Assembly (NCBI RefSeq): GCF_014203015.1
Contig: NZ_JACHIB010000004.1
Location: forward strand, 62,001 to 126,000
Direction: 5' to 3'
Length of the DNA: 64,000 nt
Origin: Castellaniella defragrans
GTDB lineage: Bacteria; Pseudomonadota; Gammaproteobacteria; Burkholderiales; Burkholderiaceae_B
The notes beneath the pieces were generated by a model. The model had not been told where the DNA came from. It made no database searches and saw only the letters and a list, made by a program, of their open reading frames with translations. Position 1 is the stretch's first letter. Each line of letters starts with the position of its first letter. Position numbers and translations under genes: made by a program. Shown here in pieces: positions 13,060 through 20,793 of this stretch.

Positions 13060-13247
13060 TCTACTATACGGTAACACCCCGTCAAGCGTGGGGAAACAGG
13101 CGCGAAAAGCCGACAAATCTCAAGTTTCGCGCCCGGCCTGCCGGAAAAGGATAGTCCAGACCCCAAATGTTCCGGCAAAGAACTTATAATCCCTCACGAG
13201 ATCAGGGGCCTTTCCCTGGCGCTCATTTTTTTTGGCAGGTTCTAATT

Positions 13248-14021
13248 TTGCTGGCTGACCCTCCCTCTTCCGGGCCGATCCGCAGGATCAACGCGCCCCG
13301 GCGCATTGCCGTGGCGCCCGAGTCGACGCGATGTTCCACCTGCATGCTGAATGCCATCTGCCTGCCGCTGGGCATGACGCGCCAGGACGTGGCCAAGATG
13401 GACGAGCTGATCAAGGAACGCTTCCGCCTGCCCAAGGGCGGCACGCTGTACCGCCAGGGCGACGTCGCCGATGCCATCTACGGCCTGCGCTCCGGCTCGA
13501 TCAAGACCCAGATCGAGGACGCCAACGGCCAGGTGCAGATCACCGGCTTCCTGCTGCCCGGCGAAGTCCTGGGCCTGGACGGGCTGATGACCGACCAGCA
13601 GGTGTCCCACGCCATCGCGCTGGAAGACTCCGAGGTCTGCATCATCCGGCTGGACGAAATGGACCAGCTGGCGCCCCAGCTGCCTTCGCTGCAGCGCCAG
13701 CTGCGCCGCCTGATGAGCAAGGAGATCGGCCGCTCGCACCAGCTGCTGCTGGCGCTGGGCAGCCTGCGCTCGGAGCAGCGCCTGGCGGCCTTCCTGCTGA
13801 ACCTGTCCCAGCGCCTGCAGGTGCTGGGCTATTCGCCCTACGAATTCATCCTGCGCATGAGCCGCGAGGAAATCGGCAATTTCCTGGGCCTGACGCTGGA
13901 GACCGTCAGCCGGCTGTTCTCGCGCTTCGCCCGCGAGGGCCTGATCCGGGTCCAGCAGCGCGAGGTCCACATCCTGGACATGGCCGGCCTGCAGGCCCTG
14001 TCGGGCACCGACTGCAGCTAG
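13248..14021 (+). CDS. fnr: FNR/ANR-type oxygen-sensing transcription regulator
   Basis: This Crp/Fnr-family activator has the iron-sulfur cysteines CSTCMLNAIC (C-x2-C-x5-C) near the N-terminus and a fourth Cys in SEVCIIRLDE. It has the cyclic-nucleotide-like fold and the helix-turn-helix SREEIGNFLGLTLETVSRLFSRF, whose E..SR recognises TTGAT half-sites. I chose the TTG at 13248 (about 257 aa, GGCAGG upstream). The ATG at 13167 would add 27 atypical residues, and a TATAAT at 13185-13190 lies inside that extension. The start is uncertain. It is divergent from nirK and upstream of the cco genes, two of whose promoters contain FNR boxes. Confidence 0.9.
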   Translation: MLADPPSSGPIRRINAPRRIAVAPESTRCSTCMLNAICLPLGMTRQDVAKMDELIKERFRLPKGGTLYRQGDVADAIYGLRSGSIKTQIEDANGQVQITGFLLPGEVLGLDGLMTDQQVSHAIALEDSEVCIIRLDEMDQLAPQLPSLQRQLRRLMSKEIGRSHQLLLALGSLRSEQRLAAFLLNLSQRLQVLGYSPYEFILRMSREEIGNFLGLTLETVSRLFSRFAREGLIRVQQREVHILDMAGLQALSGTDCS

Positions 14022-14468: not shown

Positions 14469-14693
14469 TCAGCGCTGCGCCGCCGGGGCCGGGGGCGCGG
14501 CCACGACCAGGCCCTGCCGGACCCCGCCATCGATGATAGCCTGATCGCCGTAAGACTGGAACGCCAGCACGATGGTGATGACGCAGCCGACCACTGCCAC
14601 GGCGGGGCCCAGGATCAGCAGCCAGGGCCAGCGATGGCGCCACCAGGGCTGGCCTTCGGACAGTCCGTCCGTCTCGCGTGTCTTCGATGTCAT
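14469..14693 (-). CDS. Very short FixH/CcoH-like protein
   Basis: This 74-aa protein has the FixH N-terminal signature: WWRHRWPWLLILGPAVAVVGC, one membrane helix, then QAIIDGGVRQGLVV, corresponding to the region where FixH has DDYYKQGL. FixH/CcoH helps assemble and stabilise cbb3 oxidase. Family members are usually about 150 aa with a periplasmic beta-sandwich after the helix. That domain is absent here, and the frame ends cleanly in APPAPAAQR. Start ATG 14693 (MTSKTRETDG) follows ccoG, whose stop lies 19 bp upstream. Confidence 0.75.
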   Translation of the reverse strand: MTSKTRETDGLSEGQPWWRHRWPWLLILGPAVAVVGCVITIVLAFQSYGDQAIIDGGVRQGLVVAAPPAPAAQR

Positions 14694-14712
14694 GGTGTTT
14701 TCCTCTCGGGAC

Positions 14713-16218
14713 CTAGTTCGGTACATAGAAGCTGGACTGCTCGATCACCGAGGCGGCCTCGCCGGAACCGCGCTCGCCGCGGGTCTCGAACTGGATGTCG
14801 TACAGGCCGGGCTTGAGCCCGTCGGCGGGCGCGCGCAGCACCACCGGCACCAGCCGGGTGGCCGAGCCCTCGACCCGCACCCGGGTGGCGCCCTGGTCGG
14901 CGGTCTGCAGCGCCAGGCCCGGCACGCCGGTGGCGCGCAGGTCCAGTTCGATCGGGCTTTCGTCCGAATTGATGATCTGCAGCCGGTAGACGTTCTCGAT
15001 CAGACCGCCGGCGACCTCGCGGCCCAGCGCGCCCCGGTCGCGGATCACGTCCACCCGCAGCGTGGTGCGCGTGGCCAGCGAGAACACGAACGCGACGGCG
15101 ATGGCCCCCAGCAGGGCCGAATAGGCCAGCACGCGGGGACGCAGCATGCGGCGGCGCACCTGCGACTGGCTCAGGCGTTCCGTGATGGCGTTGCCGGAGG
15201 TGTAGCGGATCAGGCCGCGCTCGTAGCCCATCTTGTCCATCACCGTGTCGCAGGCATCGACGCAGGCGCCGCAGCCGATGCACATGTACTGCAGGCCGTC
15301 GCGGATGTCGATGCCGGTGGGACAGACCTGCACGCACAGGCTGCAGTCCACGCAGTCGCCCATGCCGGCTTCCTTGTGGTCGATCTTGCGCGAGCGCCCG
15401 CCGCGCGGCTCGCCGCGCACGTGGTCGTAGGTCACGACGAAGGTGTCGTCGTCCACCATCACGCTCTGGAAGCGCGCGTAGGGGCACATGTACTTGCACA
15501 CGGCCTCGCGCATGAAGCCGGCGTTGCCCCAGGTGGCGAAGGCGTAGAACAGCATCCAGAACCACTGCCAGGGGCCGAGGTCGAAGGCCATCAGGTGCGC
15601 GCCCAGGTCGCGGATCGGCGCGAAATAGCCGATGAAGGTATAGCCCGTCCACAGGGCCAGGGCGACCCAGAGGAAATGCTTGGTGGCCTTGATGCGCAGC
15701 TTGCGCAGGTTCCAGGGCTGCTCGTCCAGGCGGATGCGCGCCAGGCGGTCGCCTTCGACCCGGGCCTCGATCCACATGAAGAGCTCGGTGTAGACCGTCT
15801 GCGGACAGGCGTAGCCGCAGAACAGCCGCCCGGCCATGGCGGTGAACAGGAACAGGGCGAAGGCCGACAGCACCAGCAGCACCGTCAGGTAGATCACGTC
15901 CTGGGGCCACAGCACCATGCCGAACAGGTAGAACTTGCGCGCCCCCAGGTCGAACAGCACCGCCTGGCGGCCGTTCCATTCGATCCAGGGCAGGCCGTAG
16001 AAGACCAGCTGGGTCAGGAACACCATCAGCACGCGGATGCGCGCGAAGTTTCCCTGGACGGAGCGCGGGTAGATCTTGGAGCGGACCTCGGCGAGCGCCT
16101 TTTCCACCTGCGGCGAGGCGCCTCCCCCCGAGCCCTTGCGGATCCTGCGCGCGGGCTGCCAGGCCGGGGCATCGCGCGGCGTCTGCGCTGCGGCCTGTTG
16201 CGGGGGTTCCTTCTGCAT
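14713..16218 (-). CDS. ccoG: Cytochrome cbb3 oxidase accessory protein, polyferredoxin and copper reductase CcoG
   Basis: CcoG is a membrane polyferredoxin that reduces Cu(II) to Cu(I) for cbb3 oxidase assembly. This 501-aa protein has about five membrane helices. It carries NapH-like cysteine motifs CGYACPQTVYTE and CKYMCPYARFQ, two ferredoxin clusters CVDCSLCVQVCPTGID and CIGCGACVDACDTVMDK, and a C-terminal periplasmic immunoglobulin-like domain (from about residue 370). All expected cysteines are present. It lies downstream of ccoP after a gap holding a strong hairpin, and upstream of fixH. Confidence 0.95.
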   Translation of the reverse strand: MQKEPPQQAAAQTPRDAPAWQPARRIRKGSGGGASPQVEKALAEVRSKIYPRSVQGNFARIRVLMVFLTQLVFYGLPWIEWNGRQAVLFDLGARKFYLFGMVLWPQDVIYLTVLLVLSAFALFLFTAMAGRLFCGYACPQTVYTELFMWIEARVEGDRLARIRLDEQPWNLRKLRIKATKHFLWVALALWTGYTFIGYFAPIRDLGAHLMAFDLGPWQWFWMLFYAFATWGNAGFMREAVCKYMCPYARFQSVMVDDDTFVVTYDHVRGEPRGGRSRKIDHKEAGMGDCVDCSLCVQVCPTGIDIRDGLQYMCIGCGACVDACDTVMDKMGYERGLIRYTSGNAITERLSQSQVRRRMLRPRVLAYSALLGAIAVAFVFSLATRTTLRVDVIRDRGALGREVAGGLIENVYRLQIINSDESPIELDLRATGVPGLALQTADQGATRVRVEGSATRLVPVVLRAPADGLKPGLYDIQFETRGERGSGEAASVIEQSSFYVPN

Positions 16219-16313: not shown

Positions 16314-17216
16314 CTAGCGGTTGGACTGGCTCCACACCCAGGCCGTCAGCAGGCGGATCTGCTCGGGCGTGAGGTGTTCCTTCTGGGCCGGCATCTGGTT
16401 GTCGCGGCCCTTCAGGATGGTCTCGACGATGGTGGCCTCCGAGCTGCCGTACAGCCAGACGTCGTCGGTCAGGTTGGGCGCGCCCAGGGCCTGGTTGCCC
16501 TTGGCGTCGGCGCCGTGGCAGGCCACGCAGTAGGTCTCGAAGCCGCGCCGGCCGGCATTGACGCGCAGCGGGTCGTGCGCCAGCCCCGACAGCGAGCGGA
16601 CGTACTGGGCGATGGCGGAGGCCTCTTCGGGCTTGATCGCCGCGCTCCAGGCCGGCATCACGCCGTGGCGGCCTTCCGTGATGGTCTGCTGGATCTGTTC
16701 CGGCGCGCCGCCGTACAGCCAGTCGCCGTCGGTCAGGTTGGGGAAGCCGCGGCCGCCCCTGGCGTCCGAGCCGTGGCACTGGGCACAGTTGTTCAGGAAC
16801 AGCCGCTGGCCGATGTCCTGCGCCTGGGCGTCGCGCGCGATGTCCGGGATCGGCATGTCGCGGAAGCGCTCGTACACGGGCTGGATGCGCGCATTGAACG
16901 CTTCCTGTTCCTGCAGGACCTGCTTGCCGGCCGTGAAGCCGAGCGTGCCCTTCCAGGTGCCCAGGCCGGGATACAGCACCAGGTAGCCCAGCGCGAAGAT
17001 GCACAGGCCCAGGTACATCACCGTCCACCAGCGCGGCACGGGGTTGTTCAGCTCGGTCAGGTCGCCGTCCCAGACGTGACCGGTGTTCTCGACCTGCTCG
17101 ACGTTGCGCTTGAGCCAGGCGCGCTGCGAGAACAGCAGGTACACGCACCAGGCGATCCCGCCCAGGGCGATGACCGCGATGTAGTAGCTCCAGAAACTGC
17201 TGACGAAATCACTCAT
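16314..17216 (-). CDS. ccoP: Cytochrome cbb3 oxidase diheme subunit III CcoP
   Basis: This 300-aa CcoP has two N-terminal membrane helices (SYYIAVIALGGIAWCVYLLF and WWTVMYLGLCIFALGYLVLY). Two periplasmic c-type haem domains follow, with CAQCH (about residue 139) and CVACH (about 232). Distal Met ligands lie in GVMPAW and DNQMPAQ contexts. It passes electrons from the bc1 complex to CcoO and CcoN. Its ATG lies inside the end of ccoQ (8-bp overlap), so translation is coupled. Confidence 0.96.
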   Translation of the reverse strand: MSDFVSSFWSYYIAVIALGGIAWCVYLLFSQRAWLKRNVEQVENTGHVWDGDLTELNNPVPRWWTVMYLGLCIFALGYLVLYPGLGTWKGTLGFTAGKQVLQEQEAFNARIQPVYERFRDMPIPDIARDAQAQDIGQRLFLNNCAQCHGSDARGGRGFPNLTDGDWLYGGAPEQIQQTITEGRHGVMPAWSAAIKPEEASAIAQYVRSLSGLAHDPLRVNAGRRGFETYCVACHGADAKGNQALGAPNLTDDVWLYGSSEATIVETILKGRDNQMPAQKEHLTPEQIRLLTAWVWSQSNR

Positions 17217-17385
17217 TTGATTCCCCGGTATTCTTGTCGTTCTGATATTCCTCGGGCAGGGCGAAGGGCAGCATCGCCGCCTGCCGGTTGGCCTCGGCGC
17301 GATGCGTCGACCAGGCCCACCACACGATGCCCAGGAACGTCGCCATCCCCAGCGCCGTCACGATCCCGTTGATGATGCCGAGCAT
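17209..17385 (-). CDS. ccoQ: Cytochrome cbb3 oxidase small subunit CcoQ
   Basis: This 58-aa protein reads MLGIINGIVTALGMATFLGI then VWWAWSTHRAEANRQAAMLPF and ends in an acidic tail, a standard CcoQ with one membrane helix. It starts 2 bp after the ccoO stop and overlaps the ccoP start by 8 bp. CcoQ stabilises the oxidase core. Confidence 0.93.
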   Translation of the reverse strand: MLGIINGIVTALGMATFLGIVWWAWSTHRAEANRQAAMLPFALPEEYQNDKNTGESNE

Positions 17386-17386
17386 C

Positions 17387-18043
17387 TCAGCGCCCTCCGT
17401 CGACCATGGACTGCTGCGCGGCGGCGCGCCCGCCCACGCCCAGGCCCTGCAGGTAGGCCACGACCGCGTCTTCCTCGGTCTTGCCCTTGAGCTGCCCGGG
17501 CGCGGCGGCGATGTCCTCGTCCGTGTAGGGCACGCCCAGGGTGCGCAGCACCTTCATGCGTTCCTGGACGTCGGCGCCCTCGACCGAGTTCTTCTGCAGC
17601 CAGGGATAGGCCGGCATGTTGGATTCCTTGACCACGTCGCGCGGATTGCGCAGGTGGATGCGGTGCCATTCGTCGGAATAGCGCTGGCCGACGCGGGCAA
17701 GATCCGGACCCGTGCGCTTGGAGCCCCACAGGAAGGGGTGGTCGTAGACCGATTCCGAGGCGATGGAATACGGGCCGTAGCGCTGGACTTCGGACTGCAG
17801 CTTGCGGATCTGCTGGGAATGGCAGCCCACGCAGCCTTCGCGGATGTAGACGTCACGGCCCACCAGCCGCAGCGCCTCGTAGGGCTTGACGCCCTCGACC
17901 GCCGTGGTGGTGGAGTGCTGGTAGAACAGCGGGATGATCTGCACCAGGCCGGAGAACGACACCACCAGGATGCTGAAGAAGATCAGCAGGCCGACGTTGC
18001 GCTCCAGCATTTCATGGGAGAAGCGTTTCTTGGTACCAGACAT
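17387..18043 (-). CDS. ccoO: Cytochrome cbb3 oxidase monoheme subunit II CcoO
   Basis: This 218-aa membrane-anchored cytochrome c has the N-terminal helix [25 protein letters not shown], the haem motif [12 protein letters not shown], and the family region [31 protein letters not shown]. The axial Met is in [13 protein letters not shown] 18043 ([10 protein letters not shown]) is preceded by AAGGAG. A GTG two codons upstream is a less likely start. It lies between ccoN and ccoQ in the operon. Confidence 0.95.
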
Positions 18044-18055
18044 GGTCACAACTCC

Positions 18056-19537
18056 TTAGGCCGATGCCGGCACGGCGGTTTGGGGAACGGCGTGTGCGTG
18101 CGGGGTTTCCAGGGGCACCACCGGATTGACCCGGGGCTGGCCGCGCACCGTCAGCCAGGTGTTCCAGGCCATCAGGCCCATGCCCGACAGGAAGAACAGG
18201 CCGCCGATCATGCGGATGGTGTAGAACGGGTAGGTGGACTTCACGACCTCGACGAAGCTGTAGGTCAGCATGCCGTCCTCGCCCGTGGCGCGCCACATCA
18301 GGCCCTGCATCACGCCGGCGATCCACATCGCGGCGATGTACAGCACCACGCCCAGCGTCGCCAGCCAGAAGTGCAGGTTGATGTAGTCCGGGCGGGCCAT
18401 GCTTTCGCGGCCGTACAGGCGCGGGATCAGGTAGTACAGCGAGCCGAAGGTGATCATCGCCACCCAGCCCAGGGCGCCGGCGTGCACGTGGCCGACCGTC
18501 CAGTCGGTGTAGTGCGACAGCGCGTTGACCGTGCGGATGGACATCATGGAGCCCTCGAAGGTCGCCATGCCGTAGAAGGACAGCGCCACCACCAGGAACT
18601 TCAGGATCGGGTCGGTGCGCAGCTTGTGCCAGGCGCCCGAGACGGTCATGATGCCGTTGATCATCCCGCCCCAGGACGGCGCGAGCAGGATCAGCGAGAA
18701 CGCCATGCCCAGCGACTGGGTCCAGTCGGGCAGCGAGGTGTACAGCAGGTGGTGCGGACCGGCCCACATGTAGGTGAAGGCCAGCGCCCAGAAGTGCACG
18801 ATCGACAGGCGGTAGGAATAGATCGGGCGGCCGGCCTGCTTGGGCACGAAGTAGTACATCATGCCCAGGAAGCTGGTGGTCAGGAAGAAGCCCACGGCGT
18901 TGTGGCCGTACCACCACTGCACCATGGCGTCCTGCACGCCGGCGTAGGCGGAATAGGACTTCCACAGCGACACCGGCAGTTCGAGGTTGTTGAAGATGTG
19001 CAGGAGGGCGATCGTCAGGATGTAGGACCCGAAGAACCAGTTCGCCACGTAGATGTGCCTGACGCGGCGCTTGGCGATGGTGCCGAAGAACACGATGGCG
19101 TAGGCCACCCAGACCAGCGTGATCAGGATGTCGATGGGCCATTCGAGTTCGGCGTATTCCTTGGTCGAGGTATAGCCCAGGGGCAGGGTGATCACCGCCC
19201 CGACCAGCACGGCCTGCCAGCCCCAGAAGGTGAAGGCGGCGAGCTTGTCGGAGAACAGGCGGACCTGACAGGTACGCTGCACGACGTAGTAGGACGTGGC
19301 GAACAGGGCGCTGCCGCCGAAGGCGAAGATCACCCCGTTGGTGTGCAGCGGCCGCAGCCGCCCGTAGCTGAGCCACGGCGTGTTGAAGTTCAGTTCCGGC
19401 CAGATCAGCTGCGAAGCGATCAGCACGCCGACAGCCATGCCCACCACGCCCCAGAAGATCGTGGCGATGGTGAACTGTCGGACGACGCCGTAATTGAAGG
19501 TTTCGGCCGGTGTTCCGGCTGTACCGGTCGTGCCCAT
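18056..19537 (-). CDS. ccoN: Cytochrome cbb3 oxidase catalytic subunit I CcoN
   Basis: This 493-aa, 12-helix haem-copper oxidase subunit reduces O2 at high affinity. Metal ligands are visible in [15 protein letters not shown] (low-spin haem His), [13 protein letters not shown] (Cu-B His), [16 protein letters not shown] (Cu-B His pair), and [13 protein letters not shown] (haem b and haem b3 His). The cbb3-type cross-linked Tyr region is in TYMWAGPHH and following. It is the first gene of ccoNOQP. An FNR box overlapping the 3' end of ccoS lies 78-91 bp upstream of its ATG. Confidence 0.97.
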
Positions 19538-19586: not shown

Positions 19587-19628
19587 ATAATCCCCTACCC
19601 GCCTCGAAACCTCCTTGATTTAGGTCAA
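19587..19628 (-). promoter_or_regulatory. FNR-dependent promoter of ccoNOQP
   Basis: TTGAT-TTAG-GTCAA (19615-19628) matches the FNR consensus TTGAT-N4-ATCAA with one mismatch. On the minus strand GATTAT (19592-19587) is a plausible -10. The implied start near 19580 places the box centre at -41.5, the class II activator position. The box overlaps the ccoS stop codon. Confidence 0.8.
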
Positions 19629-19786
19629 GGCCCCCCGGGGTGGGCGTGATCGTCATCGTCCAGGATGGCGGAGGCCGCATCCCGGGTGTCGTCGAACTGG
19701 CCGGCGAAGATCGCCCACCAGAACGCCACGCCGATTCCCAGGACGAACAGCAGGGAAATCGGCAGAAGCAGGAACAGCGCGTCCAT
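19625..19786 (-). CDS. ccoS: Cytochrome cbb3 oxidase maturation protein CcoS
   Basis: This 53-aa small membrane protein reads MDALFLLLPISLLFVLGIG, then VAFWWAIFAGQFDDTRDAAS and an Asp/His tail. The AFWWA..GQFDD motif is characteristic of CcoS, which is needed for cofactor insertion into cbb3 oxidase. It follows the CcoI-like gene by 7 bp. Its last codons overlap the FNR box of ccoN. Confidence 0.92.
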   Translation of the reverse strand: MDALFLLLPISLLFVLGIGVAFWWAIFAGQFDDTRDAASAILDDDDHAHPGGP

Positions 19787-19793
19787 GGCGGCC

Positions 19794-20708
19794 TCAGACG
19801 GGCTGGGCGGCCGCCCGCCGCCCGGCCACGCCGCCGCCGGCCGGGCGCACCAGGCGCCAGGCGTTGGCCGCGACGGCCAGGGAGGACAGCAGCATGGTGA
19901 TGGCGGCCACCCAGGGCTGCACCCAGCCGACGGCCGCCAGCGGCGCCATCAGCAGATGCCAGGCGAGGGATCCATGGAGATTCTGGCGCGCGATGCGCCG
20001 CATGGCGCGATCCAGCGCGGCGGGGTCGCGCACCCCGTCCGCGCCCGCGCGCAGGCGCGCCGCATGGCGGGCGGCCAGGGCGGCCGGCACCGACATGGAG
20101 AGCGCACAGGGACAGCTTATGACCAGCAGGGCGACCGTCACGGCGAGGGCCTGGCCGGGCTGCGCGTGCCACCAGTACAGGCCGACGGCGGCGGCCAGCA
20201 GGATCTGCGCGCAGACGAACCAGAAGGCCAGGCGGTCGGCCGAGCGCAGCAGCGCGGCGTCCCGGGCCTCGGGGGACTGGCCGCTGACGGCCTGCCGGGC
20301 ACAGGTCTCCAGGAAACGGGCCGTCAGCAGGAAGGCCACGAACATGGACACCGAATCGAAATAGACTTCGCCCGTGTCGCGCCAGGTGGCGGCCACGCTG
20401 GGCACGAAGGCGGCGAGGATGCCCAGCGCCACGGGCACGTCCATGCCGATGCGCCGCCGCGACAGCGAGCGCCAGGCGCCGCGCCACACTGGCCAGGCAC
20501 AGTACAGGACCAGCGGGACGCAGAGCACCAGGCTGAGCCAGTTCATCAGCACGATGGCCTGCTCCAGGGACTGCTGGGCGTCGGGCGCGCGCGCGCCGTG
20601 GCGCAGGTACCCCGGGAAGGCCAGCATCATGACCTGCATCATCACCAGCCAGGCCAGCCCGGTGCGGGCGAGCATGTGCCGCCGGGCGCGGCGCATGGCA
20701 TCGGACAT
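19794..20708 (-). CDS. CcoI-like membrane scaffold: copper P-type ATPase lacking its cytoplasmic catalytic domains
   Basis: This protein of about 304 aa aligns by eye with the eight membrane helices of CcoI/CopA2 copper P1B-ATPases: ALAWLVMMQVMMLAFPGYL, MNWLSLVLCVPLVLYCAW, MDVPVALGILAAF, and VYFDSVSMFVAFLLTARFLE. Then come FWFVCAQILLAAAVGLYWW, the CPC metal helix VISCPCALSMSVPAAL, and the final pair LLMAPLAAVGWVQPW/MLLSSLAVAANAWRL. The N-terminal metal domain, the actuator domain between helices 4 and 5, and the DKTG phosphorylation/nucleotide domain between helices 6 and 7 are missing. Short linkers replace them and the frame is intact. Full CcoI is about 700-800 aa. ATP-driven transport is therefore impossible alone. 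Start uncertain (ATG 20708, ATG 20744 or GTG 20762). Confidence 0.85.
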   Translation of the reverse strand: MSDAMRRARRHMLARTGLAWLVMMQVMMLAFPGYLRHGARAPDAQQSLEQAIVLMNWLSLVLCVPLVLYCAWPVWRGAWRSLSRRRIGMDVPVALGILAAFVPSVAATWRDTGEVYFDSVSMFVAFLLTARFLETCARQAVSGQSPEARDAALLRSADRLAFWFVCAQILLAAAVGLYWWHAQPGQALAVTVALLVISCPCALSMSVPAALAARHAARLRAGADGVRDPAALDRAMRRIARQNLHGSLAWHLLMAPLAAVGWVQPWVAAITMLLSSLAVAANAWRLVRPAGGGVAGRRAAAQPV

Positions 20709-20751
20709 GTTCGGCGGAGGGGTGAATAGAGAGGGGCTGCGCATGGGGTGG

Positions 20752-20793
20752 ACTATAGCCACGAGCCGGGATGTGAACCTTGATACAGATCAA
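20752..20793 (-). promoter_or_regulatory. Class II FNR promoter of the ccoI-like/ccoS unit
   Basis: A perfect FNR box TTGAT-ACAG-ATCAA lies at 20780-20793. On the minus strand TATAGT (20757-20752) is the -10, giving a start near 20745 and placing the box centre at -41.5. This also argues against the GTG at 20762 as the gene start. Confidence 0.85.

Follow-up and report, generated by a model that had tools for sequence, protein, structure and literature searches.

The 64,000 nt of Castellaniella defragrans DNA analysed here (the window) carry a cbb3 oxidase operon in which the place of ccoI is held by a gene for a CcoI protein reduced to its membrane domain (short ccoI). Is this a broken or wrongly assembled copper pump gene, or has it kept a function, and what could a pump still do once its catalytic domains are gone?

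Gene and operon

The reading frame of short ccoI is unbroken across 19794–20744, the single intact frame described in an earlier reading made from the DNA letters alone (the sequence-only reading). That reading began the protein at 20708, but the conserved ATG lies 36 nt further upstream, at 20744, adding 12 residues. The N-terminal motif MRxxSIF is common to relatives, and because this motif is shared and the ATG lies 40–45 nt from the centre of an FNR box, the start was assigned to 20744. The features of the operon, in the order in which short ccoI and its neighbours are read, are:

19794..20744, minus strand: short ccoI (membrane domain only), 316 aa, eight helices, conserved start MRSPSLF
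19625..19786, minus strand: ccoS, 53 aa; PF03597 7.8e-16, TIGR00847 1.1e-14
18056..19537, minus strand: ccoN, catalytic subunit with the CuB site; open frame; best TIGR00780 match in its own genome 7.3e-226, without listed place
17387..18049, minus strand: ccoO; open frame; same-order match in 11 of 11 relatives' operons
17209..17385, minus strand: ccoQ; open frame; matched in relatives' operons
16314..17216, minus strand: ccoP; open frame; matched in relatives' operons
14713..16218, minus strand: ccoG, cupric reductase family; TIGR02745 4e-149
14469..14726, minus strand: ccoH-like, 85 aa; PF05751 9.4e-4 (below cut-off), covering the first 33 of 150 FixH positions
13167..14021, plus strand: Fnr-type regulator adjoining the operon; NF008365 1.5e-64, 217.7 bits (just under the cut-off of 228)

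The three open frames following ccoN are presumably ccoO, ccoQ and ccoP, names taken from gene order. The gene ccoS begins 7 nt past the stop codon of short ccoI, directly after it as previously described, and matches to ccoS and ccoN lie downstream in all 68 loci examined.

Stop-to-stop frames matching CcoH are at most 106 aa long in nine of ten loci of the family, relatives with full-length CcoI included. The exception is L240, where the match sits towards the end of a longer frame; in the sole locus from outside the family the frame is 180 aa long. As ccoH is short even beside full-length CcoI, the shrinkage of CcoH may predate that of CcoI.

FNR box and predicted transcript

Two FNR-type boxes are found in this part of the window, the first being the perfect box already recognised upstream of the gene:

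20780..20793, no strand assigned: perfect FNR box TTGATACAGATCAA, centred 42.5 nt before the A of the start codon (A = +1)
19615..19628, no strand assigned: second FNR-like box (9/10), between ccoS and ccoN

A box matching in at least nine of ten positions lies ahead of the start in 56 of 61 non-duplicate short loci (0.5% in shuffled controls), and in 54 of these 56 the conserved ATG is 40–45 nt from the box centre. Full-length loci have a box near the start in 19 of 72 cases, five of them with the same spacing, so that this arrangement also occurs outside the short form. FNR sites from which the activator makes direct contact are usually centred 41.5 nt before the transcript start. Combined with the distance between box and ATG, this would put the transcript start at or very near the ATG (box and ATG together span 20742–20793 of the window), and short ccoI is predicted to be transcribed as a leaderless, FNR-activated mRNA.

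Lost domains and retained helices

Alignment with full-length CcoI bore out that the eight CcoI helices are retained and that the metal-binding, actuator and phosphorylation/ATP domains are absent. The helix columns align throughout; what is missing is the N-terminal metal-binding part and two internal stretches, of about 111 columns (actuator) and about 325 columns (phosphorylation/ATP). The approximate junctions left by the internal losses are:

20247..20288, minus strand: actuator-loss junction in the helix 4–5 loop, residues ~153–166; ~111 columns absent
20016..20051, minus strand: phosphorylation/ATP-loss junction in the helix 6–7 loop, residues ~232–243; ~325 columns absent

The Pfam E1-E2_ATPase match begins past the actuator part and is confined to the helix 5–6 part (profile positions 102–173 of 181, E 2.8e-11), while the TIGR01511 match is split into three pieces. 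Pfam gave no HMA match in short CcoI, and the first long helix of the structural model starts at residue 15. DKTG is missing from all 40 short-form rows checked (fragments and repeats included), as is TGE from the same 40; L128 and L129 were counted as short, having been labelled full-length solely from a long stop-to-stop frame. Judged from these sequences, short CcoI cannot by itself hydrolyse ATP or be an ATP-driven pump. Without the catalytic features that define a P-type ATPase it does not count as one; its sequence, fold and descent place it in the CcoI lineage.

An AlphaFold2 model made from the window protein and 31 relatives (7 short, 24 full-length) shows eight long helices, the sixth interrupted at CPC (mean pLDDT 88.2, pTM 0.83), the full-length pumps in the alignment favouring a pump fold. 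When this model was compared with the PDB by Foldseek, the best ten matches were all P1B copper ATPases (TM-score by query 0.46–0.57, four with E ≤ 0.001), headed by 4bbj (E 7.8e-05). The match of the modelled fold to these ATPases is clear but moderate, and prediction and alignment together support the eight-helix membrane core envisaged by the sequence-only reading.

Metal-site residues

P1B pumps are described as having two membrane copper sites, one at CPC and the other a motif with Met and Ser among its residues (PMC8475189). The corresponding residues of short CcoI are:

20106..20114, minus strand: CPC codons, C211-P212-C213, helix 6; both Cys in 69 of 69 short rows
19956..19958, minus strand: His263, helix 7; His in 69 of 69 short rows, Asn in full-length CcoI
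19881..19895, minus strand: Met284...Ser287-Ser288, helix 8; Met in 69, first Ser in 69 and second Ser in 68 of 69 short rows

The CPC cysteines are invariant in the 69 short rows (repeats included) and in 72 full-length rows, and the helix-8 Met and first Ser are present in all 67 ungapped full-length rows. The earlier description of a preserved helix order, CPC helix included, was right, but helix 7 is altered, with Tyr-Asn replaced by Trp-His. The Asn occurs in all 71 ungapped full-length rows and in all 24 CopA rows, and the residue before the new His is Trp in 66 and Phe in three of the 69 short rows, against Tyr in CcoI and CopA. From work on CopA, we take the helix-7 Asn to belong to the second membrane copper site, and its change to His would swap one ligand of that site for histidine.

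Two readings that would dispense with copper pumping bear on these residues. Possibly the helices form a passive transmembrane path along which Cu(I) is drawn, without ATP, by tight capture in CcoN or in periplasmic chaperones. The metal-site residues of helices 6, 7 and 8, either retained or swapped for another possible ligand, would suit such a path, as would a modelled fold that is that of a P1B pump. However, a pathway that leaks copper to or from the cytosol would carry a cost, and P-type pumps are gated by the domains lost here; a conduit is considered unlikely.

Less probable still, with perhaps a slim chance, is that short CcoI binds no metal and just stabilises CcoN or other subunits during assembly, its conserved residues being structural. 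That CcoN is basically absent from Rhodobacter capsulatus lacking CcoI (PMC8475189) is consistent with a stabilising role, but the 48 of 283 columns that are invariant across the 69 short rows include the two cysteines of CPC, Met and Ser of helix 8 and the new His.

Distribution in Alcaligenaceae and the order

The sequence-only reading had pointed to relatives as the place to look for the same short form, and short ccoI is not peculiar to the window's genome. A protein search of 268 Alcaligenaceae genomes gave matches in 205 at E ≤ 1e-8, spread over 37 of 43 genera; 184 genomes, from 31 of 43 genera, have the short form and the 21 further matches are longer pumps, counts that are not independent since the genomes are related. 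The two forms were told apart by E-value and coverage, backed by sequence checks on 69 short rows and on those longer pumps that were among the loci; one of the 21 longer-pump assignments, G192 (8.9e-9), was placed by table values alone.

The presence of short ccoI follows that of the oxidase. A ccoN match (TIGR00780) above the curated cut-off was found in 199 of the 268 genomes, and in 203 at E ≤ 1e-100. These 203 comprise 180 genomes with the short form (interrupted in G084), 19 with the full-length type and four in which the copy is unreadable. The full-length type accompanies ccoN in G110, G111, G142, G152, G153, G154, G156, G184, G188–G191, G194, G196, G197, G214, G225, G227 and G238, the copy of G227 being cut, apparently by a contig end. 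All four unreadable cases lie at contig ends, three by coordinates (G097, G130 and G168); in G166 the locus stops just upstream of ccoS, from which we infer that the copy was lost to the contig end. Among the 65 genomes without ccoN, the short form occurs in only four, the exceptions being G047 (ccoN broken), G019 (a fragment), G066 (a shortened copy) and G251 (truncated at a contig end). G114–G116, which are of the window's genus, show neither ccoN nor short ccoI. Where the oxidase is absent, short ccoI is nearly always absent too, the window's genus included.

The order was sampled with 399 genomes, Alcaligenaceae among them; the best matches listed there from outside the family were partial and 36–56% identical, mostly in frames of about 700–1180 aa. 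A few shorter frames, of 404, 428, 476 and 621 aa, were among the matches listed, those of 428 and 476 aa starting less than 450 nt from a contig end. At least seven named short forms were present in the 80 of 264 rows from which names were drawn: Pollutimonas harenae, P. bauzanensis, Achromobacter pulmonis, A. denitrificans, A. animicus, Mesopusillimonas faecipullorum and Alcaligenaceae bacterium CGII-56. Over the columns used for the tree, three of the seven do not differ from genomes of the searched family, which identifies that family as Alcaligenaceae. No place covering 80% of short CcoI was found among 3369 matching plasmid records. Full-length and short CcoI were not seen together in any genome, considering the three best candidates per genome and, for the window's genome, a full search.

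Some full-length relatives have peculiarities of their own. L107 and L108 (G110, G111) and L054 (G184) are full-length and CcoI-like with DKTG present and the exact TGE string missing; as other full-length rows also lack the exact string (e.g., SGE in L142), this absence may be minor. Full-length-type CcoI in shorter frames, of 672 and 773 aa, adjoins ccoN in L057/L111 (G225) and L055 (G188).

Single origin and selection

A tree of 283 membrane-domain columns places all 53 short forms in one clade (SH-aLRT 100) that lies inside full-length CcoI, a branch of 61 rows (SH-aLRT 95), and apart from CopA. The tree came from a quick search with 119 of 165 rows, the window's own row being omitted as a near-copy of L009 (90% identical). 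Next to the short clade stand full-length rows from a single genus of Alcaligenaceae (L047, L048, L050 and L052) together with G238; the exact sister is unsure, as the joining branch has a support of 86 and L053 (G238) is a long branch. The helix 1 motif MMQxMM is found in CcoI and in the short form, and not in CopA. Repeated independent truncation was also considered, and was ruled out by the single short-form clade.

The dN/dS of short ccoI ranged from 0.04 to 0.31 (Nei–Gojobori; the 46 pairs with fewest synonymous changes of 93 compared, taken within nine groups, some of which span two genera), values that are rough because many pairs are near synonymous saturation. Group medians for ccoN were 0.02–0.09 (five of the nine groups). 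Short ccoI is under clear purifying selection, weaker than that on ccoN, and the relaxed selection (dN/dS near 1) that the sequence-only reading named as a danger to its case was not what these pairs gave.

The same data bear on the reading of short ccoI as a decaying or mis-assembled gene. G084 has a gene of this kind: its copy lies in two pieces (L099, L120) about 1.1 kb apart and its ccoN match is weak and fragmented, so short ccoI does decay where cbb3 is damaged. Against this stand the spread over 31 of 43 genera, the dN/dS values and the invariant sites, and also the recurrence of the short frame across the family with no internal stop among the matches listed, which excludes chance and artefact, including an assembly error or frameshift hiding the missing domains. 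With the single clade added, decay or mis-assembly of the window's gene can practically be dismissed. A sequencing error or pseudogene was likewise ruled out by family-wide recurrence and dN/dS. A retained function, for which the first reading had argued, is upheld by the single origin, dN/dS, invariant metal-site residues and conservation across the family, as well as by the fixed operon and promoter geometry and the near-absence of the gene where ccoN is absent.

Other ATPases and copper supply

The window's genome is 99.99% complete, in 45 contigs, and a PF00122 search of it found six other P-type ATPases. The two of copper type (L001 and L003) fall in the CopA group (SH-aLRT 100) and are on other contigs. 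Judging from sequence, we take L002 to be ZntA-like, L004 and L005 not to be heavy-metal types and L006 to be KdpB-like. L003, CopA-like with a CPMHP/CPKCGM N-terminal motif, is on a 4.6 kb contig (C34), so short that it is perhaps a repeat or mobile element.

A query with the CcoI phosphorylation/ATP domain matched just these six ATPases in the window's genome, and hence no orphan catalytic domain. A split gene with a separate motor was rejected on this search, and a second full-length CcoI was rejected because the copper-type pair sit in the CopA clade. The suggestion that short CcoI partners a full-length CcoI encoded elsewhere is accordingly not supported in the window's genome, where neither a full-length CcoI nor an orphan catalytic domain was found.

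Other copper-handling genes are present. SCO1-SenC and PCuAC genes occur in the window's genome, and a CopA-type pump was recognised by motif in all 14 checked genomes that are at least 95% complete, in eight of which (G078, G163, G217, G218, G219, G221, G237 and G241) it was the sole other match to the family model. This co-occurrence, to which L001 and L003 of the window's genome belong, would fit a partnership in which short CcoI binds to a CopA1 pump and diverts copper from it towards cbb3 assembly. However, the CopA-like genes of the window's genome are on other contigs, and no CopA type was recognised by motif in G252 (91% complete) or G180 (92%), both of which carry ccoN and short ccoI, although incompleteness could explain this. 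In R. capsulatus, moreover, raised CopA does not compensate for the loss of CcoI (PMC8475189), which points to a CcoI role that CopA cannot fill. Such a partnership seems very unlikely.

Proposed function

The reading we favour, and consider probable, is that CcoI lost its catalytic and metal-binding domains in the ancestor of most Alcaligenaceae and that the remaining core has since been selected as a non-catalytic assembly factor that passes Cu(I) to the cbb3 oxidase. Linkage and homology suggest the role in cbb3 assembly. An ancestral CcoI would have shed the N-terminal metal-binding, actuator and phosphorylation/ATP domains, while the membrane core stayed and remained encoded within the cbb3 operon. 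Cu(I) would be held by Cys211, Cys213, Met284 and probably His263, and passed to CcoN within the membrane, with short CcoI acting as metallochaperone and scaffold without ATP. CopZ, CopA or the periplasmic chaperones Sco and PCuAC would supply the copper, with CcoS and CcoG assisting. Most economically, docking and Cu(I) hand-over, the part of CcoI that is not replaceable, would have been kept and the motor dropped. On a narrower version of this proposal, for which the case is evenly balanced, the membrane domain of a P-type ATPase may have become a stand-alone, ATP-independent Cu(I) relay, its second site re-ligated from Asn to His and its copper moving sideways to CuB.

Several observations count against a Cu(I)-passing assembly factor. 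In R. capsulatus, CcoI exports Cu(I) at the expense of ATP, and mutation of its CPC leaves just 2% of cbb3 activity (PMC8475189), which argues that the ancestral function used pumping. After loss of ccoI in that species, copper was no help in earlier work, while one assay of the same account regained about 30% of activity with copper (PMC8475189), and a Campylobacter jejuni ccoI mutant was partially rescued by copper (PMC8267372); the recovery in both species means that supply alone may be the point. The CopA-type pumps found by motif in 14 of 14 genomes could provide that supply. Selection is also weaker on short ccoI than on ccoN. Finally, with nothing to drive conformational change, a Cu(I) site in the membrane may trap copper instead of donating it.

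Comparison with known systems

A conserved family of CcoI proteins without a motor suggests that copper can be handed to the cbb3 oxidase without ATP-driven pumping. A 2020 review calls it puzzling that the copper of cbb3 oxidase, although inserted from the periplasmic side, has to be drawn from a pool in the cytosol by CcoI export (PMC7558416); if the relay reading is true, active pumping through the cytosol is not obligatory for cbb3 assembly, and a pump fold would have been reused without ATP. As the family is a natural one consisting of the membrane core only, whether pumping or hand-over in the membrane is the essential part becomes directly testable. Among the matches listed, no open-licence title or abstract opening described a P1B ATPase, CcoI or other, that lacks the catalytic domains. 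A survey of copper proteins in beta-proteobacteria says that it omits this ATPase class (PMC6769254), and for Bordetella pertussis, where ccoN is a pseudogene, the functions of the copper proteins of oxidase assembly are called uncharacterised (PMC13038864).

Short CcoI resembles the CcoI/FixI/CopA2-type P1B-1 ATPases in the order and sequence of its eight helices, in MMQxMM, CPC and the helix-8 Met and Ser-Ser, in adjoining ccoS and ccoN, and in being nested in the CcoI tree. It differs from CcoI/FixI in having no metal-binding, actuator or phosphorylation/ATP domain and in the helix-7 change from Asn to His. With CopA/CopA1, for which structures are solved (4bbj, 3rfu, 7r0g), it shares the membrane fold (TM-score by query 0.51), CPC and the helix-8 Met and Ser-Ser, but CopA forms a separate clade and has YN in helix 7, all catalytic domains and no MMQxMM. 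Other bacteria require CcoS and CcoH for their oxidase to be active (PMC8267372, PMC7558416). Like these small, non-catalytic cbb3 assembly proteins, short CcoI is a membrane protein encoded in the same operon. To our knowledge it is homologous to neither of them and, unlike them, it descends from a pump.
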